A model generated the notes under the pieces. That model was given only the letters and a program-made list of their open reading frames with translations, ran no database searches and was not told the DNA's origin. Made by a program: the position numbers and the translations under genes. This document shows positions 1-56,139 of a stretch of DNA of 64,000 nucleotides, in pieces. Where the stretch lies: the NCBI RefSeq assembly GCF_004745485.1, contig NZ_RHFG01000005.1, positions 1 to 64,000 on the forward strand, read 5' to 3'. This stretch comes from Brevibacterium sp. S22 (GTDB lineage Bacteria > Actinomycetota > Actinomycetes > Actinomycetales > Brevibacteriaceae). Every line of letters begins with the position of its first letter. The stretch's first letter is position 1.

Positions 1-113
1 ACCGCGCCGAGGGCTGTTTCGTTGACGACTATGTCGAGATCCCAACCGTCTGGGTGCCGGGACTTCGACGTCGCTGAGGTTTCCTGCAATTTCGGGTCCA
101 GAACCGAAACCAT
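1..113 (-). CDS. Possible 5' end of an unidentified gene running off the window
   Basis: An ATG at 113-111 on the minus strand opens a frame that stays open to the window edge. The 37 or so visible residues contain DGWDLDIVVNETALGA, which looks protein-like, but I recognise no family and there is no clear ribosome binding site. The other frames of this 200-base edge are broken by stops. It lies downstream of and in the same orientation as the symporter, so it could be the next gene of that operon. Low confidence. Confidence 0.2.
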   Translation of the reverse strand, partial: MVSVLDPKLQETSATSKSRHPDGWDLDIVVNETALGA

Positions 114-203
114 TCGGCAACAGGCTCTCGAACTTGATGGCACGAACGGAAAGTGGCGATGATCCAGCGCCGCCCGGAGCTGCAGCGTCGCCCCGGCAGC
201 CTG

Positions 204-1766
204 TCAGCGGCCCAGGCGTTCCTTCCAGGCGGCCATGACCTCGGGAGGGGTCGGTTTCGAAGCGAAGGACCCGACGAGGTACCCGACCAGTGAGGCGATG
301 AGGCCCAGGTAGATGGCCGATTCGGCGTAGATGCCCGAGACGATCATGACGACCACGGTGGTCACGGCACCGAGGATCATGCCGGCCATCACGCCGACGA
401 TCGTTCCGCGCTTGAACACCAGACCGCCGAGGATCGGGATGAACAGGCCGGCGACCAGCAGGTTGTAGGCCACGGTGAGGGCCTCGACGACGCTGGGCAT
501 GAGCATTGCGAGCACCAGCGTGACGACACCGAGTCCGATGAGGTAGATGCGCGAATCGCGGATCTCATCGCCGGTCTCCCGGACGAGGGATCTCACCAGT
601 GTGGATTTCGTCCCGGATTCGCTCGCCGAGGCGGCCCCCTCCGCACCGTCACCCGACCCTGCACCGCCGGTCGGGTCCGACCCGACACCCGCACCGTCGC
701 CCGACCTGTCAGAGTCGACCGTCGTCACCGGGGCGACGTCCTTGCGTGCCAGCAGCGGTTCGACGATGTCCTGTCGGCACACGGTCGAGGCGGCCATGAG
801 CGAGCCCGAAGCCGTCGACATCATCGCGGCCAGCGCCGCTGCGAGGACGATTCCGCCGAGCAGCGGAGACATCGACGCGTCGACGACGGCGACGAACACA
901 TCGTCCTGGATCTCGATGCCGGGCACGATCTTCGTCGCTGCCATGCCGATGAGCGCCCCGGCCACAGCATAGAGCAGGCAGTACACGCCGGCGGAGAACC
1001 CGCCCCAGCGGGCCACACCCGGACTGCGCGCGGTGAATACGCGCTGCCAGATGTCCTGGCCGATGAGCAGGCCGAGGGTGTAGATGAGGATGTAGCCGAG
1101 GATCGCCTGCCAGCCGATGCCCACCGGTGAGGTGTGCGTGTCAGGCAGCGAGGAGAACAGTTCGGAGATGCCTCCGGACTTCGACAGCACGACCGGCAGC
1201 ATGATGAGGAAGATGCCGATCGTCTGGATGAAGAACTGCACGAAGTCCGTCAGCGTGATCGACCACATCCCGCCGAGCATCGAATAGAGGATGACGATGC
1301 CGCCGCCGATGAGCACCGACCACACCTTGTTGAGGTCGAACAGGGCATGGAAGACCGTGGCGTAGGCGACCGTCGACGTCGTCGAGATCATCAGACCGTA
1401 GGCGGTCATGATCGCTCCCGAGACGAACCTCGAGCCCTTCCCATAGCGGAGTTCGAGCATCTGCGAGACCGTGTAGATCTCGAGCTTCTGAATCTTCGGG
1501 GCGAAGAACAGCGAGAGCGCGATGATGCCCAGGCCGATCGACAGCACGAGCCACATTCCCGACAGGCCCGCCGTGTAGCCCAAGCCCACACCGCCGATCG
1601 TCGACGCGCCGCCGAGGACGACGGCCGACATCGTGCCGGTGTACAGCAGACCGCCGAGGCGTCGTCCGGCGACTAAGAAGTCCTCCTGGTTATGGGCCTT
1701 GAATCGGCCCCAGACTCCGAATCCCACCATGGCGGCGAGATAGATGATGACTACCAAAGAGTCCAC
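204..1766 (-). CDS. Sodium:solute symporter (SSS family)
   Basis: A 520-residue polytopic membrane protein with about 12-13 hydrophobic segments and the SSS-family layout: an N-terminal DFLVAGRRLG stretch near residues 29-38, GGASTIGGVGLGYTAG near 52-67 and GQDIWQRVFTA near 236-246. It should couple Na+ entry to uptake of a small organic solute. It starts with GTG behind a GAGAGGG ribosome binding site. It is the third gene of an operon with a ThDP enzyme and a ureohydrolase, so the likely cargo is a guanidino compound or polyamine; that is inference from context. Residues about 345-390 form a Gly/Ser/Asp/Ala-rich cytoplasmic insertion unlike the rest of the protein, encoded by DNA carrying the recurrent CGCCGAGGCGG motif. 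Confidence 0.85.
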   Translation of the reverse strand: MDSLVVIIYLAAMVGFGVWGRFKAHNQEDFLVAGRRLGGLLYTGTMSAVVLGGASTIGGVGLGYTAGLSGMWLVLSIGLGIIALSLFFAPKIQKLEIYTVSQMLELRYGKGSRFVSGAIMTAYGLMISTTSTVAYATVFHALFDLNKVWSVLIGGGIVILYSMLGGMWSITLTDFVQFFIQTIGIFLIMLPVVLSKSGGISELFSSLPDTHTSPVGIGWQAILGYILIYTLGLLIGQDIWQRVFTARSPGVARWGGFSAGVYCLLYAVAGALIGMAATKIVPGIEIQDDVFVAVVDASMSPLLGGIVLAAALAAMMSTASGSLMAASTVCRQDIVEPLLARKDVAPVTTVDSDRSGDGAGVGSDPTGGAGSGDGAEGAASASESGTKSTLVRSLVRETGDEIRDSRIYLIGLGVVTLVLAMLMPSVVEALTVAYNLLVAGLFIPILGGLVFKRGTIVGVMAGMILGAVTTVVVMIVSGIYAESAIYLGLIASLVGYLVGSFASKPTPPEVMAAWKERLGR

Positions 1767-1790
1767 AGCGACCCTCTCTGTTGGATCGGC

Positions 1791-3494
1791 TCAGTGGCCG
1801 ACGGTGATGTGAATGACGGTGGGAACGGTGCGGTTGAGTGCCTCGGCGATGGCCGCGGGCAGGGCGGAGTCGATGTCCGCCTCGGCGATCGTCACCCCGA
1901 CCCCGCCCATGGACTGACTGAGCTTCGCGAAGTCCGGACGGGCGAGCCGGACGGCGAAGGGTTCGATGTCGCGGTCGACCATCTGACCCTCGATCTCCGC
2001 ATAGCCTCCGTTGTCGACGACGACGAAGGGGATGCCCAATCCCAGCTCGGCCGCGGTCATGAGCTCCTGGATGGAGAACATGGCCGCACCGTCGCCGAGG
2101 ATGCACACGACCGGCCGCGCGGGATCGGCGAGCTTCGCCCCGAGTGCGGCGGGAATGCCGTAGCCCAGGGTCGCGAATCCGGGCATGTAGAGCAGCTGGT
2201 CGGGCGTGCTCGCTGTCAGCGCGTGCACCGTGCCGTCGTAGGTGACCTGCGAGGAGTCACCGGAGATGACGACGTTCGACCCCGCTCCCTCTGCGACGAG
2301 ACGCGTGACCCTGGCCCCGATCGCATCGAAGTCGAAATCGGTGCCCCAGCTCTCGCGAATCCGGGCGACCCGATCGGCACCGGAAACCCTCGCCGAGGCG
2401 GCCGAGCCGTTCGCTCCAGACGTTTCCGTCCCTTCGTCGCCGGCCGAGGCGGCCATGTCCGGTGGTGACCCGAGCGCGCTCATGAGCGCGGTGAGGAACT
2501 CGGAGGCGTCCGCGCAGGCGAGGATGTCCCCGGGCAGATTCTTGTTCAGCTGGTCGGGGTCGATATCGCAGCGGATGACGGTCTGCCGGGCAGACTCATC
2601 CCGGACGCCGATGCTCGTCTGCGCACCGATGACTCCGCCCCACAGGTCGGAGTCGGCCAGTTCGGACCCGAGCACGATGAGCACGTCGGCAGCCGCTGAT
2701 TCGGCCTGCACACTGGGGAAGCGCACATTCGACCCCAAAGACAGCGGATGCGTCTCAGCGACGATGCCCTTGCCGTTGGCTGTCGTCGCCAGGGGAACGT
2801 CGAGGGCTTCGATGAGTCTGGCAACCTCGGTGTGGGCGCTCCTGGCTCCGCCGCCGGCGATGACCATCGGACGCTTCGCCGAACGGATCACCTCGGCCGC
2901 ACGGGCCACGATATGCTCATCGAGTCCGGGCCGGTGCCCTGAGAACGATGCCGGAACACTGCCGTTCCAGGCGCCCTCGAGCACGTCGAGGGGAACCTCG
3001 ATGTGGACCGGTCCGGGGCGGGCGGAGTCGAACATGGCGAACGCCTCGGCGACGGCCTGCGCAGCACCTTCGGCGGTGCGGGTGCGCTGGGAGGACACGA
3101 GGAGGCGACCCACCGCCCCGGAGGAGTCCTTCGTCTCGTGCAGCATTCCGACGTCGGCGCGCTCGAACCCGGTGGGAACACCGGGGGAGAGGATGAGCAT
3201 GGGACGGGACTCCGCATAGGCGGTCGCAGCGGCCGTGAGGACGTTCGTCAGCCCCGGCCCCGAGGTCGTGATGACGACCCCGGGCTTGCCGGAGACGAGG
3301 AAGTACCCGTCGGCACCGTAGCCAGCTCCCTGCTCGTGGCGGGGAGTCACGGCGCGGATCCCGAACTCCGGCAGGTGCCGGTAGAACTCGAGGTTATGGG
3401 TGCCGGGGATGCCGAAGATCGTATCGACACCATGGGCGGCCAGCGTCGCCACCACTGCACGGCCGCCGTTGCGGATGTTCTGATCGGTGCTCAT
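1791..3494 (-). CDS. ThDP-dependent decarboxylase, acetolactate-synthase-like (candidate 2-ketoarginine decarboxylase)
   Basis: A 567-residue enzyme with the three-domain acetolactate-synthase fold. The catalytic glutamate is in RHEQGAG (E54), and the ThDP/Mg2+ motif begins at GDG (467) and ends at the Asn of VVVDNGG. The N-terminal GVDTIFGIPGTHNLEFYRHL resembles AruI, the 5-guanidino-2-oxopentanoate decarboxylase of the arginine transaminase pathway, more than anabolic IlvB. No small regulatory subunit or other ilv gene is nearby. The gene abuts the ureohydrolase without spacing, and AruI plus guanidinobutyrase would give 4-guanidinobutyraldehyde and then, after oxidation, GABA and urea. Residues about 335-370 are a low-complexity Ala/Ser/Gly insertion. 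The family call is secure; the substrate is inferred. Confidence 0.75.
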   Translation of the reverse strand: MSTDQNIRNGGRAVVATLAAHGVDTIFGIPGTHNLEFYRHLPEFGIRAVTPRHEQGAGYGADGYFLVSGKPGVVITTSGPGLTNVLTAAATAYAESRPMLILSPGVPTGFERADVGMLHETKDSSGAVGRLLVSSQRTRTAEGAAQAVAEAFAMFDSARPGPVHIEVPLDVLEGAWNGSVPASFSGHRPGLDEHIVARAAEVIRSAKRPMVIAGGGARSAHTEVARLIEALDVPLATTANGKGIVAETHPLSLGSNVRFPSVQAESAAADVLIVLGSELADSDLWGGVIGAQTSIGVRDESARQTVIRCDIDPDQLNKNLPGDILACADASEFLTALMSALGSPPDMAASAGDEGTETSGANGSAASARVSGADRVARIRESWGTDFDFDAIGARVTRLVAEGAGSNVVISGDSSQVTYDGTVHALTASTPDQLLYMPGFATLGYGIPAALGAKLADPARPVVCILGDGAAMFSIQELMTAAELGLGIPFVVVDNGGYAEIEGQMVDRDIEPFAVRLARPDFAKLSQSMGGVGVTIAEADIDSALPAAIAEALNRTVPTVIHITVGH

Positions 3495-4505
3495 TCAGAT
3501 ACCGAGGGCTTCGCCGGATGGACCGGAGGGAGTATTGACTCCGTTGTTCTCCGCCGCCCACAGGGACAGGATCTCGTAGCCGACATGGGCGGCGGCGAGT
3601 CCGGTGACTTCGGCATGGTCGTAGGCAGGGGCGACCTCGACGATCTCGGCGCCGACGATGTTGAGTCCTTGGAGCCCGCGGAGCGAGTTGAGCAGCTCAC
3701 GGCTGGTCATTCCGCCGGCCTCGGGGGTTCCGGTGCCGGGGGCGGCCGCCGGGTCGAGGACATCGATGTCGACGGAGACGTAGACGGGAGCATCGCCGAG
3801 GCGTCTGCGCATCCGGGCGACGACGTCGGTCACGGAGGTGAACTGGTACTCGTCGCTGCGGATGACCTGGAAGCCGAGCACCTCATCGTCCTCGAGGTCT
3901 TTCTGACCGTAGAGCGGTCCGCGGATGCCGACGTGCATTGAGGCAGTCATATCGATGAGCCCCTCTTCGCTGGCGCGACGGAACGGGGTGCCGTGGGTGT
4001 AAGGGGCGCCGAAGTAGGTGTCCCAGGTGTCCAGGTGCGCATCGAAGTGGAGGACGGCGATCTTGCCGTGTGTCTTGTGCAGAGAGCGCAGGTTCGGCAG
4101 GGCCAGGGTATGGTCCCCGCCGAGGGTGAGCAGCTTGGCCCCGTCGGCGCGCAGGGCGTCGGCATTGGCTTCGACAGTGGCGATGGCCTCTTCGATGTCG
4201 AAGGGGTTGACGCCCAGGTCACCGCAGTCGGCGACCTGCTGCCACGTGAACGGGTGGACGTTCGTGGCCTGGTTGTAGGGTCGCAGCAGCTTCGAGGACT
4301 GACGGATGTGGGCAGGGCCGAAGCGGGCACCGGGACGGTAGCTGACGCCGGCGTCGAAGGGGACGCCGACGACCTTGACGTCGATCTTCTCACCGGGACG
4401 CTGGGCCTCGACTTCGTCGATGCGCGGCAGCAGTCCGAACGTCGGGGGCCCTGCGTAACGGGGTGTCTTGCTGTAGTCGGCTGGGCCGAGCGGCTGAGAA
4501 GTCAC
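3495..4505 (-). CDS. speB: Agmatinase / guanidinobutyrase-type ureohydrolase
   Basis: A 336-residue arginase-superfamily enzyme that hydrolyses a guanidino group to an amine and urea. The binuclear Mn2+ ligands are visible: GGDHT (129-133), FDAHLDTWD (154-162) and SVDIDVLDP (244-252). Length and motifs fit the agmatinase branch; 4-guanidinobutyrate or guanidinopropionate are alternative substrates, and the neighbouring AruI-like enzyme favours 4-guanidinobutyrate. It starts with GTG after AAGGAG and is the first gene of the operon. The downstream ThDP enzyme starts directly after its stop codon. The promoter lies in the 145-bp gap shared with the divergent PucR-type regulator. Confidence 0.85.
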
Positions 4506-4595
4506 TGGCTTTCTCCTTCGTCGTGGCGGCTGATCCGACCCGGACGGGCCGGAGATCGTGTCCTCAGCCTAGGACGTGGCTCACACAACACCCAT

Positions 4596-4638
4596 ATCCA
4601 GAGTGGATCATTTGAAATCCTGGTTATCCAATGTGGAT
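4596..4638. promoter_or_regulatory. Twin palindromic operators ATCCA-N3-TGGAT, 30 bp apart
   Basis: Two copies of ATCCAnnnTGGAT lie at 4596-4608 and 4626-4638, with centres exactly 30 bp apart, about three helical turns. The second has six-base arms, TATCCA/TGGATA, and abuts the -10 hexamer of pucR. They are between the divergent ureohydrolase operon and pucR, so they are the natural binding site of the PucR-type protein for autoregulation and control of the catabolic operon. Confidence 0.75.
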
Positions 4639-4650
4639 AGAATCGGATGC
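4638..4650 (+). promoter_or_regulatory. -10 element of a leaderless pucR promoter
   Basis: TAGAAT at 4638-4643 matches the actinobacterial TANNNT -10 element and is followed by seven bases and then the ATG at 4651. Transcription would start at or next to the start codon, which fixes the start of the regulator and rules out longer upstream readings through the operators. Confidence 0.6.
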
Positions 4651-6072
4651 ATGGTCACTCTGGATCAGATCTGGTCGCGCGCAGAGCTCGCGCTCGAGGT
4701 CATCGTCGATTCGCCGACCGCTGCGGAACAGGAGGTCACGATCGTCCATTCCTCGGAGCTGCCGGAGGTCGACGAATGGCTCGCCGGAGGTGAGGTGCTG
4801 CTGACGATCGGGGTCGGTCAGGACCTCGGCGGGGACACGGTGTGGGACTATGTGCGCCGTCTCAAGACTGTCGGCGTTCATGCATTGGGCATCGGTTTGG
4901 GCTCCGACCTGCCGTGGCAGCAGGTCCCGCCGAAGCTGAAGGCTGCTGCCGAGGAGGCGGGACTGGCTCTGTTCGGCGTGCCCGAACCCGTACCGTTCGT
5001 CGCCGTCGTCGACGCCTTCACCAGGATGCGTGAGGCCGAGACCAACCGGGAGCTGACCCGGGCGAGCAGCGCCGCTCGTCGTTTTGCGACCGCGCTGGCA
5101 GGCGAGGGCCCCGCGGCGCTGGTGGCCGATCTGGCCCAGACGCTGGAGGCGCCGGCCCGGTTCGTCTCTCCCACCGGCAGGGCGCTGAGCGGCGACGACG
5201 CCGAGGCAGATGTGCGTTCAGCGCTCATCGAGGAGACCTTGAAACCGACGACAGGGCCGCGCCTGATCCGCACCGGTTCGCGGATCGTCGAGGCCGTTCC
5301 GATCGGGGGTGATCATCCGCTCGGATGGATCCTCACCCCCGCCGAGGCGGCCGGATCTCCGAAGACGCGTGCCCTGCTGCTCTCGACCGCTTCGGCCCTG
5401 TTGGCGATGACGCTGACAGATCTGCCCGATCCCTCCGGTCGTTCACCGCTGTTCGACACCGACCTCGGTGACGATGCGGCGCGCGAGGAATGGGTCCGGG
5501 CGACGGGGCTGGCTCCGGTCGCGACGGTGGGGATGCACATCTTCGGCGGGGTCCGCGGGGACATCGCCGAACGCCTCATCGCCGATATCGTCGGTCGGAG
5601 TCTGCTCACCCGCAGCGGTTCGCTGCTCGGAGTCGTCGGCGCGCAGGAGTGCGGGCTCGATGAACTGGTGACGAAGGCCGCCGAAGCCGCCGGCGTGGAT
5701 GTGCTTGCGGAGAAGCGGCTGCCGCTGCGGCAGCTCCACCACACGTGGATGCTCTGGCGGACTCAACACGAGTCGGAGGCCTCCGAGGTCAGGGCGCTGC
5801 TGTCGGCGGTCGATGAGGAGGCCGCCGACCGGTTCGTCGATCGGGTCCTCGGCGAACTCTTTCGGGCGCGCGGCGGTCAGGCGCTGCTGGAGACTCTGCG
5901 GGTCTTCATCGCCGCGTCCGGGGCACGGGAACGCATCGCCGCTGAGCTCGGCGTCCACCGGCATACGGTGCGGGCGCGGTTGGCGAAGATCGAGAAGCTG
6001 CTCGGCCGTGACCTCTCCCGCTCCGAAACCGTGCAGGCGGTGTCGCTGGCCCTCGAACTCGCTGAACTCTAA
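4651..6072 (+). CDS. PucR-family transcriptional regulator
   Basis: A 473-residue regulator. The N-terminal part (roughly residues 10-130) matches the PucR-like purine catabolism domain, and the C-terminus carries a helix-turn-helix of the PucR/CdaR type in ARERIAAELGVHRHTVRARLAKIEKLLGR, shown here only in outline, followed by a final helical segment. The start was placed at ATG 4651 because it sits seven bases after a TANNNT hexamer; an upstream ATG at 4576 would translate through both operators. It is divergent from the ureohydrolase operon, which it probably controls in response to the guanidino substrate. Its stop codon overlaps that of the convergent aminotransferase by four bases. Confidence 0.85.
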   Translation: MVTLDQIWSRAELALEVIVDSPTAAEQEVTIVHSSELPEVDEWLAGGEVLLTIGVGQDLGGDTVWDYVRRLKTVGVHALGIGLGSDLPWQQVPPKLKAAAEEAGLALFGVPEPVPFVAVVDAFTRMREAETNRELTRASSAARRFATALAGEGPAALVADLAQTLEAPARFVSPTGRALSGDDAEADVRSALIEETLKPTTGPRLIRTGSRIVEAVPIGGDHPLGWILTPAEAAGSPKTRALLLSTASALLAMTLTDLPDPSGRSPLFDTDLGDDAAREEWVRATGLAPVATVGMHIFGGVRGDIAERLIADIVGRSLLTRSGSLLGVVGAQECGLDELVTKAAEAAGVDVLAEKRLPLRQLHHTWMLWRTQHESEASEVRALLSAVDEEAADRFVDRVLGELFRARGGQALLETLRVFIAASGARERIAAELGVHRHTVRARLAKIEKLLGRDLSRSETVQAVSLALELAEL

Positions 6073-7238
6073 CCGAAGTGTTCGGTCCGGAAGGCCTGCG
6101 CGATCCCGAGGACACGGTCGAGAGCTTCGGGTTCTCCGATGCTGATGCGCACACCGGCACCGAGGTTGCGCACCGCCACGGCCTGATCGACACAGGCATC
6201 TTCGAATGCTGAGGACTTCTCACCCAGCGGCAGCCACACATAGTTCGATTGAGCTTCGGGCACGTCCCATCCCTGCTGCCGCAGGGCATCGGCGAAGACG
6301 TCGCGTGCGTGCCCGATACGGGCAGCACGATCGAGCACTTCGTCCCAGTGGTTGAGGGATTCGAGTGCGGCGGCTTGGCTGAGGTCGGTGACGCCGAAGG
6401 GGATGACGGCTTTGAGGAGACCCTCGACGACCCGCGGGTGGGCGACGGCGTAGCCGACGCGCAGTCCGGCGAGTCCGTGCGCCTTCGAGAAGGTGCGCAG
6501 CAGAACGAGATTCGGATAGTCGCGGACAAGACTCAGACCGTCCACACGTCCGGGTGCAGTGGCGAACTCCCAATAGGCCTCGTCGAGGGCGACGAGGACA
6601 TGGGCAGGCACCTGATCGAGGAAAGCCCGCACCTCGACATCGCGCAGCACCGGACCGGTCGGATTGTTCGGCGAGCACAGGATGATGAGGCTCGTGCGGT
6701 CTGTGATCGCCGCCGCCATCGCGTCGAGGTCGTGGCGCCCGTCCGCCGTCAGCGACACCTCGCGGCGCGTGGAACCGACGAGCCCGGTGGTCTGCGGATA
6801 CATCTCGAACGACGGCCAAGGATAGATCGCCTCGGTGGTGGCATCCGAGGTGATCTGGGTCAGTGCGACGAGCAGTTCACTGGCACCGGTGGTGACGACG
6901 AGCTGATCGAGGCCGACACCGAGGCGGGCGGCCAACCCCTGGCGCAGCGCCAGCGCCGCATCGTCTGGGTAGAGGGCGGGGTTCGTCGCATGAGCGACCA
7001 TGGTGTCGAGGACCGCCGGCAGGGGAGGCAGATAGTTCTCGTTCGAGGAGAGTTTGAATGACTCCAGACCCGCGACCCGGCGGGGAGGCTTGCCCGGAAT
7101 ATAGGGCGGGAATGTATCCAGAGCGGCCCGCAGACGCGGTGACGCCGCGGGATCGGGCCTCGCGGGGGAGGAAGAGCCGCCCACCGCAGGTGCGGCGGCA
7201 TCGGGAACAGCAGAGTCTGCAGGGTCGGGGGAGTTCAT
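6069..7238 (-). CDS. HisC/Pat-type PLP-dependent aminotransferase
   Basis: A 389-residue fold-type I aminotransferase of the histidinol-phosphate / aromatic amino acid (Pat) group. Visible motifs are FKLSSNENYLPP (61-72), the cofactor loop CSPNNPTGP (188-196), the catalytic lysine in RTFSKAHGLAGLRVGY (K252) and a C-terminal arginine in GAGVRISIGEPE. About 35 N-terminal residues are an Ala/Pro/Ser-rich extension. It is not in a his operon, so Pat-like phenylalanine/tyrosine transamination is more likely than histidine synthesis. It faces the pucR gene and overlaps its end. A role in making 2-ketoarginine for the adjacent operon is possible but unsupported by sequence. Confidence 0.75.
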   Translation of the reverse strand: MNSPDPADSAVPDAAAPAVGGSSSPARPDPAASPRLRAALDTFPPYIPGKPPRRVAGLESFKLSSNENYLPPLPAVLDTMVAHATNPALYPDDAALALRQGLAARLGVGLDQLVVTTGASELLVALTQITSDATTEAIYPWPSFEMYPQTTGLVGSTRREVSLTADGRHDLDAMAAAITDRTSLIILCSPNNPTGPVLRDVEVRAFLDQVPAHVLVALDEAYWEFATAPGRVDGLSLVRDYPNLVLLRTFSKAHGLAGLRVGYAVAHPRVVEGLLKAVIPFGVTDLSQAAALESLNHWDEVLDRAARIGHARDVFADALRQQGWDVPEAQSNYVWLPLGEKSSAFEDACVDQAVAVRNLGAGVRISIGEPEALDRVLGIAQAFRTEHFG

Positions 7239-47369: not shown

Positions 47370-48638
47370 ATGTCCGCCTCCCTGCTGCCTCCTGACTCTG
47401 CCGCCGCCCTTCGCAGTCGGGATCTGCTGGCGGTATTCCCTCAGCTGAGCGACTTGCCCGGTCTGCCGCAGGCGCGGATGCTCATCGACTACGTCCTCGG
47501 TCGTCGCTGCGGAGCCCTCGACGTCTCGGGCCGAGACACCGAAGGCACATTCGTCGCCGCCGAATTCTCAGCCGAGGTCCCCGAGAACCTCATCCTCGTC
47601 GACGATGCGCACGGTCTGCAGGCGACCCTGCTCAGCCGTCTGACGCAGGTATGCACATACAACGACCGCATCGACGAGGCACGAACCTTGGCCGCGGCGG
47701 TCGAGTCCCTGGCCGGAGCCGGCGAATCCGCCGGAGAGGTCGTCACCGAGGCGGCCCCCGTGCTGGCGGTGAGCGAGCTCAGTGAGATCGCGGGACTGGC
47801 CGAACTCGGTGTGGGGGAGACGTGGGCCGTCGTCAACGTTCCGAAGGCGATGAATGCGCTCACCGAGACGATCGCGGTGCTGCAGCCATTCGTGAGCACC
47901 ATCATCGTCATCGGCCGCAGCGATGCGATGAGCCGCGGCGTCAACAAGGAGCTCGCCCGCGGCTTCGGCCGAGTCGATGTCTCGCCCGGGGTCGGCAAAC
48001 ACCGGATGATCATCGGCAGCCGCCCCCTGTCCTCGCCGAGCCTGCCGGAATTCCCGCGCCGCGGGGTGATCACCCAGGGCGGCGTCGGTGAGCTCGAAGT
48101 CCGCGCTCATGGGGCCTGCTTCTCAGGGACTAAGAGCGACGAGGGCTCGGAGCTGCTCGTCGACGCGCTGCTGGGACTGCTCGCTGACGATGCGCCGGAA
48201 TCCGTGCTCGACCTCGGCTGCGGCAACGGCTGGCTGCTCACCGCGGCCATGCGAGCCTCGGGGGCGAATACGGGACTCGGCATCGACGTGTCGAAGGCGG
48301 CGGTCGCCTCGGCGAGGGCCACAGCGGAGGCGAACGGAGTTGGAATCGACGTCATCCTCGGCGATGCCGCGGACTCGGAGGAGCCGGCGCTCGCGGGACT
48401 GGGTGAATTCGACCTCATCCTGCTCAATCCGCCGTTCCATCAGGGGACGGCCATCGAGACCGAGACGGCCGCGGCGCTCATGGCCGCGGCCGCCGAGCAT
48501 CTGGCTCCGGGCGGGCAGGTGCTCACGGTGTTCAATTCGCACCTGCGCTACCGGGATCGTCTCGAATCGATCATCGGACCGAGTCGGCAGCTGGCCCGGA
48601 ACAAGAAGTTCACGGTCATCGCCAGTCGCCGCGACTGA
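47370..48638 (+). CDS. RlmG/RsmC-type rRNA guanine-N2 methyltransferase
   Basis: A 422-residue two-domain methyltransferase. The N-terminal half is a degenerate methyltransferase-like domain, and the C-terminal half has the SAM-binding VLDLGCGNGWLL (about 280-291) and the catalytic LLNPPFHQG (about 356-364) typical of RsmC and RlmG, which methylate guanine N2 in 16S or 23S rRNA. Assignment between the two is not possible from sequence alone. The ATG is six bases after a TANNNT. Confidence 0.82.
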   Translation: MSASLLPPDSAAALRSRDLLAVFPQLSDLPGLPQARMLIDYVLGRRCGALDVSGRDTEGTFVAAEFSAEVPENLILVDDAHGLQATLLSRLTQVCTYNDRIDEARTLAAAVESLAGAGESAGEVVTEAAPVLAVSELSEIAGLAELGVGETWAVVNVPKAMNALTETIAVLQPFVSTIIVIGRSDAMSRGVNKELARGFGRVDVSPGVGKHRMIIGSRPLSSPSLPEFPRRGVITQGGVGELEVRAHGACFSGTKSDEGSELLVDALLGLLADDAPESVLDLGCGNGWLLTAAMRASGANTGLGIDVSKAAVASARATAEANGVGIDVILGDAADSEEPALAGLGEFDLILLNPPFHQGTAIETETAAALMAAAAEHLAPGGQVLTVFNSHLRYRDRLESIIGPSRQLARNKKFTVIASRRD

Positions 48639-48694: not shown

Positions 48695-49666
48695 TCACCG
48701 ACGATTGCGGCGATAGATCCGCCAGGTGCTCGCCTGGTCCCAGACGGTGATGATCCAGATCGCGATGGCTGTGATGATCTGCTGGATGTCGGCATTCGCG
48801 GTACTCGTGAGTTCCGGGTGGAGGACGGGCTGGGTGAGCAGGGCGATGGTGAGGAAGATGGCCATTGCCACATCGATGATTCCGCCGATGATCGCCACTG
48901 TCGGTTTCGCCGAGGCAGTCGTGAACTTGATGATCTCCACTGCGGCCATCAGGGCGAGGAAGGCCCAGTAGCCGATCAGCCAACCAAGGCCCAGATCGGG
49001 GTTGATGAAGGTTCCGCCGCGGTTGAGGTGGCCGACGTAGAGCAGGGTCGTCGGGATGAAGGGAACCGTTGCCAAGGCCGCGATGAAGACCAATCCGAGG
49101 GCCGCCTCGGCGCGGATCTGCTTACTGCGGTAGTCACGACGATCGAGGTCATCGATCGACCATGTCCGCGTCTTCCGTCCCCGCAGGGTTGCGGTCGTGC
49201 CACCGTCCTTTTGGCGGTCGCCGAGGCCGATGATGATCGTGATGACGGCGAAGGTGGTCAGCAGGGCGTTGACGGTATTGCCGACCGCCGGCCCGATGGC
49301 CGCGCCGAGCTGGGTCTGCGGGGCAGTGGCGAAGGTGGTGATGAAGCTGGCGATCAGGGCGATGAAGCCGACGATGGGCAGGGCCCAGCGCAGCGCCCAG
49401 ATGAAGAGCGGGTACGAGTTGGGGCCGATGAGGTGCTGCGGGGTGTTCGAGTACTCCCGCGACAGCACTACCGGATCGCCGAGTTCTTCGAGGACTTCGC
49501 GTTCGACGGCGGCTGAGCGATCGGGGGAGGGATTCGCATCCTCGCCGAGGCGGTCATCGACCATGTCATCGATCGTGGCGGTGATCTCGGCGGCGATGTC
49601 CGGGCGAGTGTCTTCGGGGAGGTGGCGGGTGACGTTGTCGACGTAAATGTCGGTGAGGGCACTCAT
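48695..49666 (-). CDS. HAAS/DUF1700-like membrane protein
   Basis: A 323-residue protein with a soluble N-terminal HAAS-type helical domain (YVDNVTRHLPEDTRPDIAAE, and VLEELGDPVVLSREY near 60-75) and about six membrane helices from residue 88 onward. Proteins of this type are encoded after PadR regulators and act in membrane signalling or sigma-factor control in some bacteria; the function here is unknown. Its ATG overlaps the PadR stop (ATGA), and an upstream reading through PadR is out of frame with it. Confidence 0.8.
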   Translation of the reverse strand: MSALTDIYVDNVTRHLPEDTRPDIAAEITATIDDMVDDRLGEDANPSPDRSAAVEREVLEELGDPVVLSREYSNTPQHLIGPNSYPLFIWALRWALPIVGFIALIASFITTFATAPQTQLGAAIGPAVGNTVNALLTTFAVITIIIGLGDRQKDGGTTATLRGRKTRTWSIDDLDRRDYRSKQIRAEAALGLVFIAALATVPFIPTTLLYVGHLNRGGTFINPDLGLGWLIGYWAFLALMAAVEIIKFTTASAKPTVAIIGGIIDVAMAIFLTIALLTQPVLHPELTSTANADIQQIITAIAIWIITVWDQASTWRIYRRNRR

Positions 49667-50010
49667 GGTGTGCCGTCCTTCCATAGCGTTGTGATGCTGG
49701 AGTTGAGTTCGAGCCAGTGGGCGTGGAGCGCGGCGGCGACTTCGGCACCGCTCTCCGTGACCGTGTAGTACTTGCGGGGGCGGGCCTGCTCGGTGTTCCA
49801 CTCAGCTGTGAGCAGGCCTTGTTTCTCGAGTCTTCGCAGCAGGGGATAGAGGGTGTTGGCCTCGGTGGGGATGCCCGCTTCGGTCAGCGTCGTCAGCAGC
49901 GAGTAGCCGTACTGCGGGCGTCTGCAGGCGACGAGGCCGGCGAAGACGACGGTACCGCGCCGCAGCTCTTGTTCGTGCGTGGCCAGTGCCTTGTCTGTGT
50001 CCTCGTCCAT
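49663..50010 (-). CDS. PadR-family transcriptional regulator
   Basis: A 115-residue PadR regulator with the winged helix in RRPQYGYSLLTTLTEAGIPT and NTLYPLLRRLEKQGLLTAEW and the wing RPRKYYTVTESGAE. ATG 50010 is preferred because a -35/-10 pair with 17-bp spacing ends seven bases before it; a GTG at 50034 would be upstream of the transcription start. It is coupled to the HAAS-like membrane protein it presumably regulates. Confidence 0.88.
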   Translation of the reverse strand: MDEDTDKALATHEQELRRGTVVFAGLVACRRPQYGYSLLTTLTEAGIPTEANTLYPLLRRLEKQGLLTAEWNTEQARPRKYYTVTESGAEVAAALHAHWLELNSSITTLWKDGTP

Positions 50011-50017
50011 GTGTGAC

Positions 50018-50046
50018 ACGATAGTGTGTGCCACACAGTATTACAA
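50018..50046 (-). promoter_or_regulatory. padR promoter
   Basis: On the minus strand TTGTAA (50046-50041), a 17-bp spacer and TATCGT (50023-50018) precede ATG 50010 by seven bases, a leaderless arrangement. ACAC-GATA-GTGT (50016-50027) overlaps the -10 and could be the PadR operator. Confidence 0.6.
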
Positions 50047-50185: not shown

Positions 50186-50806
50186 ATGAGTTTGAGGAAG
50201 TGGGTGCTCTTCGATATCGGGGGAGTGCTGGAGGTCGTTGATGATGACACCTGGGGACAGCTTTTCGTTCGCCGGTGGCAGGAGCGCTCTGGATTCTCAG
50301 CGGAGGAGTATCGGGCGCGCATTCTGGCGGCGGACTTGCCGGTCATCGACCGTAGAGCGGACACGCGGGACGAGTACTGGTCGAAGCTGGGTCGAGCGCT
50401 CGAGATGGATTCGAACCTGATCGAGGCTATGCAGGCCGAGATGTGGGACGAATACTGCGGGAGTCTCAATACAGAGTTGTTTGAGTATGCAGCTGCGCTG
50501 AGGCCACGCGCCGGTGTGGCGATTCTGTCGAACTCAGTGGACGGGGCGCGGCGCGAGGAAGAACGGCGGTTCGGGTTCAGTGAAGTCTTTGACCCGATTC
50601 TCTACAGTCACGAGACCGGTCTGCTCAAGCCGGAACCGGAGGCCTATGAGAATGCGCTTGAGCGGATGGCTGCGGACGCCGGAGACGTGTTCTTCATTGA
50701 TGACCACGAAGTCTGTGCTGAAGGCGCCCGTGCCGTCGGCATGGATGCGATCGTGCACCGTGACAATCGGTCGACGATTGATGAGATAGAGCAGTTTCTT
50801 CTTTAG
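50186..50806 (+). CDS. HAD-superfamily hydrolase
   Basis: A 206-residue haloacid-dehalogenase-fold protein. The nucleophile motif is FDIGGVL (D10), with the second aspartate of DxD replaced by glycine as in dehalogenase- and epoxide-hydrolase-domain-like members; ILSNS is motif II, the lysine in GLLKPEPEAYE motif III and FIDDHEV motif IV. Substrate unknown; the lack of the acid/base aspartate argues against an ordinary phosphatase. Codon use is less G+C-biased than in the surrounding genes. Confidence 0.8.
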   Translation: MSLRKWVLFDIGGVLEVVDDDTWGQLFVRRWQERSGFSAEEYRARILAADLPVIDRRADTRDEYWSKLGRALEMDSNLIEAMQAEMWDEYCGSLNTELFEYAAALRPRAGVAILSNSVDGARREEERRFGFSEVFDPILYSHETGLLKPEPEAYENALERMAADAGDVFFIDDHEVCAEGARAVGMDAIVHRDNRSTIDEIEQFLL

Positions 50807-50834
50807 GCGGCTTGACTGAACAGGAGTGAATGAA

Positions 50835-51023
50835 ATGGCGAACAACAGTGCTTTGGCTGGTTTCATCCTCGGGCTGGCAGTGTCTGCTGGGGTGTTGATG
50901 CTGTTGATTCCTGGGCTTCTTGAAGAGCCTGAGGCATGGCAGGTGTGGGTAGCTTGGATGGCTGCCGGATGTGCCATCGCCTGCGCGCTCGGGACGGTAT
51001 TGTCTCGAGCCCGCGGGCGATGA
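50835..51023 (+). CDS. Small two-helix membrane protein
   Basis: A 62-residue protein with two hydrophobic segments (about 7-27 and 37-57) and a basic end RARGR. AGGAG precedes ATG 50835 by eight bases; a GTG at 50826 is the alternative. It is 28 bp downstream of the HAD gene and may be cotranscribed. No family recognised. Confidence 0.6.
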   Translation: MANNSALAGFILGLAVSAGVLMLLIPGLLEEPEAWQVWVAWMAAGCAIACALGTVLSRARGR

Positions 51024-51039
51024 TCGAAGCGCATCCTCT

Positions 51040-51192
51040 TCAGGCTTTTGCCACGGATCCCGGCTGATCTGAGTCGGCCGAGTCAACGGCGAGCTCGGAC
51101 GGTTGGGTGCGGAAGCCCTTCGTTGTCACCGCGAGGATGACTGCGCCGATGACAAGCCAGATCGTGCCGAGGGTGATCGCGTGCCCGTTGAG
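51040..51192 (-). pseudogene. Remnant of a second APC-family permease (C-terminus only)
   Basis: Read on the minus strand, 50 codons and a stop encode LNGHAITLGTIWLVIGAV, then ILAVTTKGFRTQPSELAV and a hydrophilic tail. This aligns with the last membrane helix of the intact permease next door, where IGAIWLVLGVGYLAFVTRGF occupies the same place. There is an in-frame stop just upstream and no start, so it is a truncated paralogue left by deletion or recombination, beginning 16 bp after the stop of the intact gene. Confidence 0.7.
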
Positions 51193-51207
51193 CCGAGTAG
51201 GTCAATG

Positions 51208-52572
51208 TCAGTCCGTCAGGTCGAGCATTGGTGTCGGCCGACGGAATCCCCGTGTGACGAAAGCGAGGTATCCGACTCCGAGAACCAGCCAGATGGCGCC
51301 GATGAGAAGAGTTCGCGGAGACAGGCTCGTCCACAGCCACAGGGTCAGACAGAATCCGATTCCCGGTAGAACGATCGAACTGAGAACAGCACGTGAACCA
51401 CGATTCTTCTCGTCGATGATGAAGTGCTTGATAACCGACAGATTCACTGCTGAGAACGCGATCAGAGCACCGAAGCTGACCATCTCCGATATGAATGCGA
51501 GGTCGACGGCGAGTGCGAGCAGGGAGACTGCGCCGACAGTCAGGGTTGCAATCGTGGGTGTGTGAAAGCGCGGTGACAAGTGGCTGAAGTAGCTTTTCGG
51601 GAGCACGCCGTCTCGACCCATCGCGAAGAGAATGCGTGAGACCGATGCCTGCGAGGTCAGAGCCGAGCCGCATGCTCCGGCGACATAGGCGGCGGTGAAG
51701 AAGGCGGTGAGGAATTCGCCGCCGGCCGCCGCCATGACGTCAAGCGCGCCTGAATCGACATCGGCGAACTGATTCGACGGGTAGACCAGCTGAGCCAGGT
51801 ACGACAGAACAATGTAGATGAGGCCGCCGGTGACAGTGGCGATGACGATCGCGCAGGGAACTGCTCTCTTCGCGTCCTTGGCTTCCTCGGACAAAGTCGA
51901 GACCGCATCGAAGCCGAGGAAAGACAGACACAGAATCGCTGCGCCGGCCATGACGTTGTCGAATCCGGGTGCAGAGCCGTCACCGGTGAAAGGCGCCGCT
52001 AGGTCGACAGAACCGGATCCGGTGAACGAAGCGATGCCCAGTGCTGCGAAGACAACGATGAAAATAGCTTGAGCGGCGATGATGACGATGTTGGCCCGCG
52101 CAACGGAAACGATTCCGATGACGTTGAGGACCGTGACGAGAACAATGGCAGTGACGACGAAGACCCAGGCCGGAATCATTGGGAATGCTGCGCTGAGGTA
52201 GATGCCGATGACGAGATAATTGATCATCGGCAAGAACAGGTAGTCGAGAAGCAGTGCCCAGCCGGCAACGAAACCGATTCCAGCTCCGAAGCTCTTCTGC
52301 GTGTACGTGTATGCCGAACCGGCAAACGGCATCGCCCCGGCCATCTTCGCGTATGACCTGGCGGTGAACACCATTGCCAGCAGAGTGATGACGTAAGCGG
52401 CCGGGACGCGGCCGCCGGTGACCTGAGTGACGATTCCGTAAGTCGTGAAGACGGTCAACGGAACCATGTAGACGAGACCGAAGAAGACGAGCGAAGGTAC
52501 TCCGAGCGCTCGCTTCAGCTGGGTCTCGGAGGTGTCTTGGGTGGTGGCGCTGTGATTGGAATGGGACATCAT
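51208..52572 (-). CDS. APC-family amino acid/amine permease
   Basis: A 454-residue permease with 12 predicted helices. GVPSLVFFGLVYMVPLTVFTT (about 24-44), AGAMPFAGSAYTYTQKSFG and LGFDAVSTLSEEAKDAKRAVP (about 220-240) are family landmarks and resemble the PuuP/putrescine importer branch. The start follows AAAGGA; two ATGs are adjacent. It lies 12 bp downstream of the YtcJ-type amidohydrolase gene in the same operon, so it probably imports that enzyme's amide or amine substrate. The stop is followed by the remnant of a second permease. Confidence 0.85.
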   Translation of the reverse strand: MMSHSNHSATTQDTSETQLKRALGVPSLVFFGLVYMVPLTVFTTYGIVTQVTGGRVPAAYVITLLAMVFTARSYAKMAGAMPFAGSAYTYTQKSFGAGIGFVAGWALLLDYLFLPMINYLVIGIYLSAAFPMIPAWVFVVTAIVLVTVLNVIGIVSVARANIVIIAAQAIFIVVFAALGIASFTGSGSVDLAAPFTGDGSAPGFDNVMAGAAILCLSFLGFDAVSTLSEEAKDAKRAVPCAIVIATVTGGLIYIVLSYLAQLVYPSNQFADVDSGALDVMAAAGGEFLTAFFTAAYVAGACGSALTSQASVSRILFAMGRDGVLPKSYFSHLSPRFHTPTIATLTVGAVSLLALAVDLAFISEMVSFGALIAFSAVNLSVIKHFIIDEKNRGSRAVLSSIVLPGIGFCLTLWLWTSLSPRTLLIGAIWLVLGVGYLAFVTRGFRRPTPMLDLTD

Positions 52573-52584
52573 TGTCCTTTCGAT

Positions 52585-54231
52585 TCAGTCCGCTGAATGG
52601 ACGGCCACGCCGCGCAGGTATGTGCGGCGAACAGGGGCATCAGACAGTTCTTGGGGGAGCAGTGTTCGAGGATCCGAATCGAGAATGATGAAGTCGGCGC
52701 TCGCGCCCGGACGGATCACTCCCCACTCTTCGGGTCTACGGTCTGCAAATGCTTGGTGGGCCACCGCAGTCGAGTAGGCGTCGAGAGAGCGTTCGATGTC
52801 AAGGATCTCATCGGGAGTCCACCCGCCGTCGGGCTCACCGTCGTCGGTCTGTCTGCTCACGGCAACCGCGAGACCCTCGAACGGGGTCCCCGAAGTGCAG
52901 GGCCAGTCCGAACCGAACGCAAGGTGCCCGCCGCTGTCGAGGACACTGCGCATCCGATATTGCGCCACGGCGCGTTCTCTGCCGATCCGGGGGACGGTGA
53001 GGACCGTCATGAGGTCATCGAGCTGAGCCCACAGGGGCTGCATATTCGCGATGACGCCGAGTTCAGCAAAGCGGGACAGGTCGGCAGAGTCGATGATCTG
53101 GGCATGTGCGATCACCGGCCGCCGATCACGGGCACCGTTGTGCCGGATTGTGTACTCGATGGCATCCAACGCCTGTCGAACGGCCGCGTCGCCGATGGCG
53201 TGGATGTGGATCTGAAACCCTGCCGCGTCGACCTCGCGAACCGCCTCCGCCAGCGAATCTCCTTCCCAGACTCGCATGCCGTGGTTGTGAAGGGAGGCGC
53301 AGTAGGGCTCGATGAGCGCACCGGTTTCGTTCTCAATGACTCCGTCGGCGAAGAACTTCACGGTCTGAGCGGTCAGGAACGGATCCGAAAGTTCTTCGAT
53401 CCGTTGCCGCGCAGAGAGCATTTCGCGCAGCTGTTGCGTGAAGCGGCGGGGATCGGCGTAGAACGCGAGGTTGAATCTCAGTTTGAGCCGATCCTGCTGA
53501 GAGGCGGACACATAGGTCTCGACATCGGCTGGCTCCACCCACGCGTCCTGGACCCAAGTGACACCTCGAGCGAGGTAATATTCGGCTGCCCGATCGAGAG
53601 CGCGGAGTCGGACGGATTCGTGGTGCGGCGGACGAAAAGCATCGATCAGATCTACCGCACCCCATTCACGCAGAGTGCCAAGCGGTGAGCCGTCGTCTCG
53701 ACGAGGAATCTCGCCTATCTGCGGTTCGGGTGTTGCAGCGGTGATCCCTGCCAGTTCCAATGCTCGAGAATTGCACCACACGGTGTGGTAGTCCCAAGCG
53801 CGAAGGACGACCGGTCGGTCGGACACGGCTCTGTCAAGCCATTCGGCGTCGAAGAGGCCGTCGCGTACGAGGCTGCCGTCATATGAGGCACCAGTGATCC
53901 AGTCGTCGTCGGGATGAGCCTCGGCGTACCGTTTCACTTCAGCGATGATCTCTTCGACGCTCGTGCACGATCTCACCTGTGGGCCCTCTGCTTCCATGCC
54001 ACCGAAGATCGGATGAGCATGGCCGTCGCCGAAGGACGGCATGAGGAACCCGCCGTCGAGATCGATGGACTCAAACTCTGCGCCGTCGTGGCTCGAAACT
54101 TGATCGAGGACGGCCGCCACCGCATGTGAACCAGAGGCAACGACTATGCCATCTTGAACCACAAGGGAATCCTCAGTTTGGGCGCCGGCGCCCAACCAGA
54201 TGGTGCCGTTGTGGAAGTGCTGCGTCGTCAA
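52585..54231 (-). CDS. YtcJ-type metal-dependent amidohydrolase
   Basis: A 548-residue member of the amidohydrolase 3/YtcJ group, which hydrolyses N-acyl or N-formyl amines. Metal motifs are GDGHAHPI, a catalytic-lysine region TVKFFADGVIENETG, IHIHAIGD and AHAQIID, with the final aspartate in FGSDWPCTSGTPFEG. The start was set at TTG 54231, preceded by AGGAGG at nine bases; readings starting further upstream would cross the divergent promoter. It is first in an operon with the APC permease and divergent from tetR. Confidence 0.85.
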   Translation of the reverse strand: MTTQHFHNGTIWLGAGAQTEDSLVVQDGIVVASGSHAVAAVLDQVSSHDGAEFESIDLDGGFLMPSFGDGHAHPIFGGMEAEGPQVRSCTSVEEIIAEVKRYAEAHPDDDWITGASYDGSLVRDGLFDAEWLDRAVSDRPVVLRAWDYHTVWCNSRALELAGITAATPEPQIGEIPRRDDGSPLGTLREWGAVDLIDAFRPPHHESVRLRALDRAAEYYLARGVTWVQDAWVEPADVETYVSASQQDRLKLRFNLAFYADPRRFTQQLREMLSARQRIEELSDPFLTAQTVKFFADGVIENETGALIEPYCASLHNHGMRVWEGDSLAEAVREVDAAGFQIHIHAIGDAAVRQALDAIEYTIRHNGARDRRPVIAHAQIIDSADLSRFAELGVIANMQPLWAQLDDLMTVLTVPRIGRERAVAQYRMRSVLDSGGHLAFGSDWPCTSGTPFEGLAVAVSRQTDDGEPDGGWTPDEILDIERSLDAYSTAVAHQAFADRRPEEWGVIRPGASADFIILDSDPRTLLPQELSDAPVRRTYLRGVAVHSAD

Positions 54232-54282
54232 GACTGCCGTCCTCCTGCTCCATTGCTTGTGGCCGGCCGCACCGGCGTTTAC

Positions 54283-54321
54283 ACGAACAGTGTTCGTATG
54301 TGACTGGGAGCACGATACACT
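54283..54321 (+). promoter_or_regulatory. TetR operator and promoter between the amidohydrolase and tetR
   Basis: ACGAACA-G-TGTTCGT at 54283-54297 is a perfect dyad with seven-base arms, typical of TetR operators. TACACT at 54316-54321 is a TANNNT -10 for the tetR side, so the operator covers its -35 region and sits 52 bp before the divergent amidohydrolase start. Confidence 0.7.
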
Positions 54322-54330
54322 GCTCGAAAG

Positions 54331-54369
54331 ATGGAGGGAAGTGCGAAATTGAGAGCGAGCATTCTGTGA
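54331..54369 (+). CDS. 12-codon leader ORF coupled to tetR
   Basis: ATG at 54331, nine bases after the -10 TACACT, opens MEGSAKLRASIL and stops at TGA 54367-54369. The stop overlaps the tetR GTG (54366) as GTGA. It would be translated first on a nearly leaderless message and hand ribosomes to tetR, which lacks a good ribosome binding site of its own. Confidence 0.4.
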   Translation: MEGSAKLRASIL

Positions 54370-54995
54370 GATTGAATCAGGATCGGCTGGTTGATGCCGC
54401 GCTCGCGCTTGTCGACGACCTCGGCGAAGAGTCATTGTCGATGCGAACTCTGGCGGCTCGCGTCGACAGGCAGGTGTCCTCTCTGTACAACCATGTCTCC
54501 GGCCGAGGTGAACTCATCGAATTGATGCGCGCACGTATCGTGGCCGGAATCGACGTTCAAGTATTTTCTGGGATCGAGGAATCGTCGGAGAGCGTGCCGT
54601 GGGACAGAGCTCTGGAGCTGTGGGCCCGGTCGTATCTCAGGGCCTTTGCCGACCATCCGAACCTCATTCGATTGTTGGCCACGACCTCGATTCGAGACCT
54701 CTCAACGTATGAAATGTATGACTCAGTGATCGGTGGACTTCGTCGAGGGGGGTGGCCGCAGGGTCGGACTGTGGCGGTGATGCGGTCCGTTGAGGCCTAT
54801 GTCCTCGGTTCCGCTCTGGACATCGTCGCTCCGGTCGACCTCATCACTCAAGAATCGGCCGGAGACAGATTTGCGGAGATTCGAGGTGCGCTGGATCCTC
54901 GATTCGGCGAGAACTCGTCAGCGGTGGCGTCCTTCGAGTTTGGGCTGACTAGCTTGATCCAAGGTCTGAAGCATCGGCTTGAGGCCTTGTCGTGA
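54366..54995 (+). CDS. TetR-family transcriptional regulator
   Basis: A 209-residue TetR regulator. The DNA-binding helices are in RLVDAALALVDDLGEESLSM and RTLAARVDRQVSSLYNHVSG (about residues 6-46), and the C-terminal ligand domain resembles the TetR_C type with WDRALELWARSYLRAFADHP. The GTG 54366 start coincides with the stop of a short leader ORF. A dyad operator lies upstream, so it is expected to repress the divergent amidohydrolase-permease operon. Its stop overlaps the ASCH gene as GTGA. Confidence 0.85.
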   Translation: MRLNQDRLVDAALALVDDLGEESLSMRTLAARVDRQVSSLYNHVSGRGELIELMRARIVAGIDVQVFSGIEESSESVPWDRALELWARSYLRAFADHPNLIRLLATTSIRDLSTYEMYDSVIGGLRRGGWPQGRTVAVMRSVEAYVLGSALDIVAPVDLITQESAGDRFAEIRGALDPRFGENSSAVASFEFGLTSLIQGLKHRLEALS

Positions 54996-55513
54996 GTCAT
55001 TCGGCAAGGCTCGATGTCACACTCGACTCGTTCTGGGTGCGGGTCCGCACCCGGAATCCAGACCTTCCGGAGAGGATGCCTGAAGCATGGGCCTTCGGCG
55101 CGACTCCCGAGCATGCGGACGACCTCCTCGCTCTCCTGCTGGCTGGGACCAAGACGGGCACCGCCTCGGCGCTGTGGGACATCGAAGCCGACGACGAATC
55201 CGTCCCCGAGGTGGGCGAACTGAGCATCATCCTCGACGGCCGAGACCGGCCGAGAGCCCTCATTGAAACCACGGCGATCGACATCGTCCCGTTCTCCGAG
55301 GTGACCGCCGAGCATGCCCATGCGGAAGGGGAGGGCGACCGAACCCTGGCCGCCTGGCGCGAGATCCATGAGCGCTTTTGGCAAGAGCATGGCCGGCGCG
55401 GGTTCTCGTTCGAGATGCCGGTCGTGTGCGAACGCTTCCGGTTGCTGTTCGACGGAGAAGACGAGGGGTGCGTCAGCGTCTCCGGCGACGAATCACAGGG
55501 GACGAGCAGATGA
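54992..55513 (+). CDS. ASCH-domain protein
   Basis: A 173-residue protein with an ASCH (PUA-like) domain: the AWAFGATPEHADDLLALLLA and GTKTGTASALWDIE segments near 30-65 and ALIETTAIDIVPFSEVT near 88-104 are characteristic. ASCH proteins bind RNA or modified nucleosides; some are N4-acetylcytidine amidohydrolases. It overlaps tetR and the following gene by four bases each, so the three form one transcription unit. Confidence 0.82.
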   Translation: MSHSARLDVTLDSFWVRVRTRNPDLPERMPEAWAFGATPEHADDLLALLLAGTKTGTASALWDIEADDESVPEVGELSIILDGRDRPRALIETTAIDIVPFSEVTAEHAHAEGEGDRTLAAWREIHERFWQEHGRRGFSFEMPVVCERFRLLFDGEDEGCVSVSGDESQGTSR

Positions 55514-56139
55514 ACGAAGCCGAATACTGGGACCTCCTCCACGCGGAACGCGCGCGCCTGGCCGATCTGCTCTCCACGCTCGAAGCAGAGCAGTGGGCGC
55601 TCGCCACTCTGTGTGCAGACTGGACGGTCGAGCAGGTCGTCGCCCACCTGACAGCCGCAGCTAACACCGGGAAGTGGGCCTGGATCCGCAGCATCGTTCG
55701 GGCAGGATTCGACCCGGCAAAGCACAACGCGCGACTGCTCGAGCGCCGCCTCGGTGGCTCACCTGAGGAGACCCTGGCGAAGTTCCGCGACTCGTCCGCT
55801 CTGACGATCGCCCCGACCAAAGACTTCGCAGCCTTCCTCGGCGAAGTCATCGTCCACGGACAGGACATCGCACGACCACTGGAACTCGACCTGACCCCTG
55901 GCGCCGAGGCGACCGTCGAGGTGGCCCGATACTTCGCCGCAAAAGACTTCGCAGTGAACTCGAAAACCCTGGTCAAAGGGCTGAAGCTCAGCGCTGCCGA
56001 CGCCGACTTCGAATCCGGAAGCGGGCCGGAGGCGACCGGTCGTGTCCTCGACCTCGTCATGGCCATGGCCGGCCGACCGGAATCACTGACAGAGCTGACG
56101 GGCGGCGGAGCCGCCGAGCTCCGGCGACGGATGGACTGA
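55510..56139 (+). CDS. Maleylpyruvate-isomerase-family (DinB-like) protein
   Basis: A 209-residue protein of the TIGR03083/maleylpyruvate isomerase N-terminal family, with LLSTLEAEQWALATLCADWTVEQVVAHL-type sequence near 18-45, given here in outline, and GEVIVHGQDIARPLEL around 120, which includes a metal-binding histidine. Such proteins form a DinB-like four-helix bundle and may act in mycothiol- or metal-dependent chemistry; the actual function is unknown. It is coupled to the ASCH gene by an ATGA overlap. Confidence 0.78.
   Translation: MNEAEYWDLLHAERARLADLLSTLEAEQWALATLCADWTVEQVVAHLTAAANTGKWAWIRSIVRAGFDPAKHNARLLERRLGGSPEETLAKFRDSSALTIAPTKDFAAFLGEVIVHGQDIARPLELDLTPGAEATVEVARYFAAKDFAVNSKTLVKGLKLSAADADFESGSGPEATGRVLDLVMAMAGRPESLTELTGGGAAELRRRMD

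Follow-up and report, generated by a model that had tools for sequence, protein, structure and literature searches.

Genes and features of the locus

The DNA analyzed here (the window) is a 64,000-nt stretch from Brevibacterium sp. S22, whose genome is designated G000 below. It contains a locus in which an intact APC permease gene (permB), an Amidohydro_3 enzyme gene, and a TetR-type regulator gene, together called cassette B, lie between PadR-like and HAD-type genes on one side and ASCH-domain and MDMPI_N genes on the other (Table 1). Directly behind permB, a short stump of another APC permease, named permA, was detected.

Table 1. Features of the permease locus in the window
Feature	Position	Strand	Remark
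Putative PadR-like regulator, left flank marker	49663..50034	-	label assigned by reading the sequence
HAD-type hydrolase, left flank	50186..50806	+	
Small ORF, 65 aa, membrane-protein-like by eye	50826..51023	+	convergent with the stump
permA remnant (last ~50 codons; final TM helix and tail of APC permease)	51040..51198	-	
Stump interior sharing sites with intact permA of G027/G014	51077..51167	-	putative recombination tract, approximate bounds
Junction of permB stop and permA homology	51199..51207	-	J1 form
permB, intact APC permease (AA_permease_2), cassette B	51208..52572	-	
Amidohydro_3 enzyme, cassette B	52585..54435	-	longest ORF, start uncertain
TetR-type regulator (TetR_C_1), cassette B	54216..54995	+	divergent from amidohydrolase, start uncertain
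ASCH-domain gene, right flank	54992..55513	+	overlaps TetR stop
MDMPI_N / TIGR03083-type gene, right flank marker	55495..56139	+	

Both permA and permB exceed the Pfam cut-offs for AA_permease_2 / AA_permease over most of the protein, in agreement with their family assignment, and both fall below the cut-off of every NCBIfam transporter model listed. Loci matched by permB include those of B. permense (98%), B. linens ATCC 9172 (97%), and B. sediminis (96%). For the Amidohydro_3 ORF, several more distant homologs align only from about codon 27-37. On the left side, the HAD-type hydrolase gene also adjoins permA in G027, G009, and G053, and a relative of the small ORF, for which no Pfam match was found, also follows intact permA in G053. 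A scan of positions 50700-52700 detected neither a terminator nor a promoter in the scar; the one terminator-like site in this region lies inside permB, with 1.2 expected in shuffles.

Identity of the stump

The permB stop is followed by CAT-TGA and then by about 50 codons in the permB frame. No stop interrupts this frame (...LNGHAITLGTIWLVIGAVILAVTTKGFRTQPSELAVDSADSDQPGSVAKA and the stop) between the TGA two codons past the permB stop and permA's own TGA at 51040-51042 (minus strand), and it has the same orientation as permB. The start and most of the coding sequence of permA are lost, and no permA ortholog was found in G000 at E <= 1e-180.

When aligned with related permeases, the stump matches the ends of intact permA genes at the same locus. 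Its protein sequence is 91% (G027; E 6.4e-23), 89%, 80%, and 81% identical to full-length Brevibacterium permeases, and the DNA at 51061-51198 is 95.7% identical to the intact permA of G027 (E 4e-59), which argues that it is the end of a permease other than permB. Identity to the end of the neighboring permB is 45% over 30 residues (E 0.0014); permA and permB are paralogs of ~43% identity. The best local DNA score of the stump against intact permA ends was 246, compared to a maximum of 32 among 200 mononucleotide shuffles, and thus the homology is far beyond chance. On sequence grounds, the stump derives from the 3' end of another, distinct APC permease gene. The preliminary description of this DNA, which had proposed the C-terminal remnant of a paralogous APC permease in an open stretch of about 50 codons, with a final helix and tail homologous to but distinct from the neighbor's end, is borne out.

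Two cassettes at one locus in Brevibacterium

The locus was mapped in 42 of 57 genomes of the genus (43 loci plus the window), and orthologs were counted in all 57 genomes at E <= 1e-180 for permA and at least 78% identity for permB. Depending on the genome, the region from PadR to ASCH/MDMPI_N holds cassette B, cassette A (an FCD-GntR regulator, a C-N hydrolase, and permA), both, or neither. permA is present in 13 genomes and permB in 26: eight have permA only, 21 have permB only, five have both (G005, G024, G028, G044, and G046), and the remaining 23 have neither in complete form. Cassette A lies between the PadR/HAD and ASCH/MDMPI_N genes in G027, G014, G009, and G053. In the window, cassette B occupies the position that cassette A has in close relatives, and the C-N hydrolase and GntR genes of cassette A are missing from the locus.

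The order of genes was also examined where both permeases occur. G024 has the order PadR-HAD-permB-amidohydrolase-TetR-permA-hydrolase-GntR-ASCH, and G028, G044, and G046 have PadR-permB-amidohydrolase-TetR-ASCH-permA-hydrolase-GntR; the G005 locus is split over two contigs and fits the latter order. In all four two-permease genomes that are readable on one contig, permA and the position of the stump thus lie on different sides of permB.

Remnants of cassette B were observed as well. In G049, one of the 23 genomes with neither permease (L077, about 1-5200), permB residues 362-454 (the last 93) lie beside TetR residues 191-252, and in G002, which has permA only (L042 6668-6970), TetR residues 156-256 lie beside ASCH and permA without permB. 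Thus, cassette B leaves stumps too. Outside the genus, permB and an adjacent amidohydrolase with 62-66% identity were found in seven of the 20 loci examined (Mycolicibacterium/Mycobacterium/Mycobacteriaceae; L152-L154, L156-L158, and L160), four of which have a TetR relative near the pair. The permB-amidohydrolase pair is thus not confined to Brevibacterium; these loci did not decide the history of cassette B.

Forms of the scar in related genomes

We scanned the 260 bases behind the permB stop at 26 permB loci for the permA tail, using 200 mononucleotide shuffles for each locus. The tail scored above all 200 shuffles in eight of them, namely G000 (the genome of the window), G048, G039, G018, G019, G029, G036, and G026, with weak scores in G036 and G026 (39 and 34, compared to null maxima of 31 and 29). 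No clear permA tail was seen at the other 18 loci, including the borderline G042 and G044, which were counted as unscarred (score equaled by one of 200 shuffles). None of the eight scarred genomes has a permA ortholog at the threshold given above.

Two junction forms were distinguished. The J1 junction is common to G000, G048, G039, and G018, which represent four species, and the J2 form, about 90 bases shorter, occurs in G029, G019, G036, and G026. Among the J1 genomes, the tail of G048 has an in-frame insertion and substitutions with the frame still open, that of G039 has lost the permA stop, and that of G018 is cut to about half. Taken together with the short pieces in the four J2 genomes, the state of the tail across relatives is one of decay, not conservation.

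Some further irregularities were noted at scarred loci. permB of G039 (L053, about 8525) shifts from one frame to another near codon 53, and the scarred allele of this genome may thus itself be broken. In G036 (L056), the small ORF is separated from a broken HAD copy by ~1.5 kb (5472-6974) with several open stretches, for example of 139 and 165 aa on the minus strand, and G026 has a contig break at the corresponding place.

Distribution of the scar among species

A core tree (rpoB+gyrB, 30 genomes), a permB tree (26 genomes), and a cassette B tree (the eight scarred genomes) were compared. In the core tree, the eight scarred genomes fall inside one clade of 12 with a bootstrap of 100, which also holds the intact cassette A genomes G009, G014, and G027 and the scarless cassette B genome G043. 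AU tests showed a strong conflict, each data set rejecting the tree of the other: p is 1.2e-4 for the core topology on the cassette B data and 2.1e-70 for the cassette topology on the core data. The J2 carriers form a group of low bootstrap in the permB tree (aLRT 95.6/UFB 47; second tree 95.5/68) and are scattered in the core tree. Accordingly, the scarred allele has passed, in whole or in part, from species to species. As a whole, the scarred group stands beside G012/G032 in the permB tree, roughly as in the core tree, on a long stem. Cassette B may therefore have been long in or near this lineage, which counts against a distant donor.

Unequal divergence was also observed to the left of the scar. 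The HAD gene and the small ORF (50186-51023) are 99% identical to those of G036 (HAD 99.0%), with 100% of fourfold sites equal, and PadR beyond them is only 88.6% identical; the segment 50186-51023 is probably a recent exchange tract. Furthermore, a methyltransferase-like gene at 47370-48638 has two divergent alleles in the clade of 12, with 74-76% nucleotide identity to G009 and G018 (despite ~96% rpoB+gyrB identity) and 89-96% to the other nine members.

Age of the scar

The preliminary description took the intact reading frame as a sign that the locus was remodeled recently, and this claim is not supported. Of 5000 shuffled versions of the segment, 28.7% contain no stop over 50 codons, and after a simulated neutral change of 10%, a 44-codon tail is still open in 74% of cases. 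Moreover, the window stump is a mosaic: both of its ends match the scarred G048 allele, and its middle matches the intact permA of G027. None of 20000 permutations gave a block pattern as strong, and at five sites in an alignment of nine sequences, the stump agrees with G027 and G014 and with no other sequence. Over 41 inner codons, all differences between the stump and the permA of G027 are synonymous, as read from the sequences. The mosaic points to later recombination of the stump interior with an intact permA lineage; in our reading, the direction of exchange would be the overwriting of the scar by intact permA. Because so many shuffles are open, the junction is common to four species, and the stump is mosaic, the open frame is no sign of recency, and the fresh appearance of the stump does not date the replacement discussed below.

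Origin of the scar

The two borders of cassette B in the window differ in character. On the right, TetR leads directly into ASCH, and a remnant of GntR was not detected at this border. Codons 1-20 of ASCH in the window are 90-98% identical to those of five other scarred genomes, compared to 42-60% for four cassette A genomes (8-20 codons aligned). At codons 61-110, the window is 97% identical to the cassette A genomes G027/G014, a level that certain scarred genomes, such as G019 (also 97%), reach as well. The clean TetR-ASCH join and the apparently mosaic ASCH gene might fit homologous recombination, but in scarred G039 and G018 the identity to the window at codons 1-20 is no more than 65% and 53%. 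Together with the scarred genomes' codons 61-110, this indicates that the ASCH crossover was not one simple event. On the left, the permB stop is followed by the last helix of permA, which comes in addition to permB's own last helix and does not take its place, as would be produced by an illegitimate join; a deletion would give the same appearance.

We consider that the stump is probably the scar of a replacement of the cassette A operon by cassette B, followed by spread and decay. As for the mechanism, we infer that a permB-amidohydrolase-TetR fragment, probably with adjoining ASCH sequence, entered a chromosome that carried cassette A. Its ASCH end would have been joined by ordinary homologous recombination and its other end illegitimately inside the 3' end of permA, and the C-N hydrolase, GntR, and all of permA upstream of the join would have been displaced. 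Recombination through the flanks would then have spread the scarred allele between species while the useless tail eroded, and in the window the tail interior would have recombined with an intact permA lineage, which helps its fresh look.

The main competitor is the history given in the preliminary description, namely two tandem permeases of which one was deleted: an ancestral permA directly downstream of permB would have lost everything except its end. The position of the stump just behind permB, in the same frame and orientation, suits such a history, as do the co-residence of both permeases at the locus in five of the 57 genomes and the pieces in G049 (93 C-terminal residues of permB beside part of TetR) and G002 (part of TetR); the G049 case indicates that deletions leaving permease tails do occur here. 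However, none of the relatives mapped has the two genes in the order that the stump demands. In the four one-contig genomes (with G005 compatible), permA lies beyond TetR or TetR-ASCH, and its deletion from these orders would leave a remnant there and not behind permB. Replacement thus fits better than deletion from a known tandem. It is also simpler, since the C-N hydrolase and GntR genes are gone too, with cassette B in their place, and a deletion would require their additional loss. Accordingly, the remodeling of the locus stands, while the tandem arrangement and deletion appear unlikely.

Far less probable is that the tail is kept as a small membrane protein or is added to the C-terminus of permB by stop read-through. 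In favor of this, the frame is open in the window and in G048, it is in frame with permB, and the differences from the permA of G027 over the 41 inner codons are synonymous. Nevertheless, no ATG, GTG, or TTG occurs in the 26 codons after the permB stop, and two in-frame stops (TGA CAT TGA) follow permB in the window. Relatives also differ from the window: G039 has lost the stop, about half is lost in G018, four genomes keep a short piece, and 18 of the 26 permB loci are without a clear tail. With no start codon nearby and a frame eroded differently from species to species, both a conserved small protein, the finding that would have overturned the preliminary description, and read-through were rejected, and the stump is a non-coding scar with no function as a protein. 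Finally, a duplicated end of permB, conceivable for paralogs of ~43% identity, is ruled out by the DNA identity of 95.7% to intact permA, since the protein identity to the permB end is 45% over 30 residues.

Beyond the replacement itself, it is a speculative and rather doubtful extension that the locus is an exchange site at which Brevibacterium species carry now one, now the other of two analogous operons (regulator, hydrolase, permease). The permA tail would then still serve as a homology arm for recombination with incoming DNA, in line with the mosaic of the window stump, and with this arm and ASCH on the other side a genome could switch back to cassette A. The intact cassette A genomes G009, G027, and G014, which fall within the clade of the scarred genomes, would be reversals.

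Comparison with known systems

In-situ (xenologous) displacement of genes or operons between related bacteria usually displaces an orthologous gene. The locus described here is similar in that one operon appears to have taken the place of a resident one without a change of chromosomal site, but it differs in that the enzyme and regulator families are not the same and only the permeases are paralogous. It clearly illustrates what appears to be the exchange of an entire catabolic operon for an unrelated one at a constant position, and its junction forms allow the scarred allele to be traced moving between species. It is also a warning that the age of a short remnant can hardly be judged from an intact frame. 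The findings imply no new biochemistry; the scar of gene exchange is real and fairly ordinary. Literature searches, including one combining Brevibacterium, amidohydrolase, amino acid permease, and pseudogene, returned no description of this locus, and in PMC5719810 three permease passages concern other genes and the word 'amidohydrolase' does not occur.

A close parallel is provided by the type VI effector-immunity modules of Vibrio cholerae, for which passages of PMC5361080 describe displacement that leaves 3' remnants and propose homology at one end, illegitimate joining at the other, and subsequent strain-to-strain homologous recombination. As in those modules, an incoming unit would here have replaced the resident one at a fixed locus, with a downstream part left behind. 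The leftover immunity genes of V. cholerae are retained, with a selective advantage suggested in the same passages (PMC5361080), whereas the Brevibacterium remnant is a startless, decaying stub, and the Brevibacterium cassettes are predicted transport/catabolism operons, unlike effector-immunity modules. A possible mechanism is homology-facilitated illegitimate recombination, for which the relevant passages of PMC3240628 name three naturally competent species and conjugation in E. coli. Brevibacterium is not among the organisms named there, and the process is inferred here from sequence; it would give one homologous and one illegitimate end (PMC3240628), as proposed for this locus.
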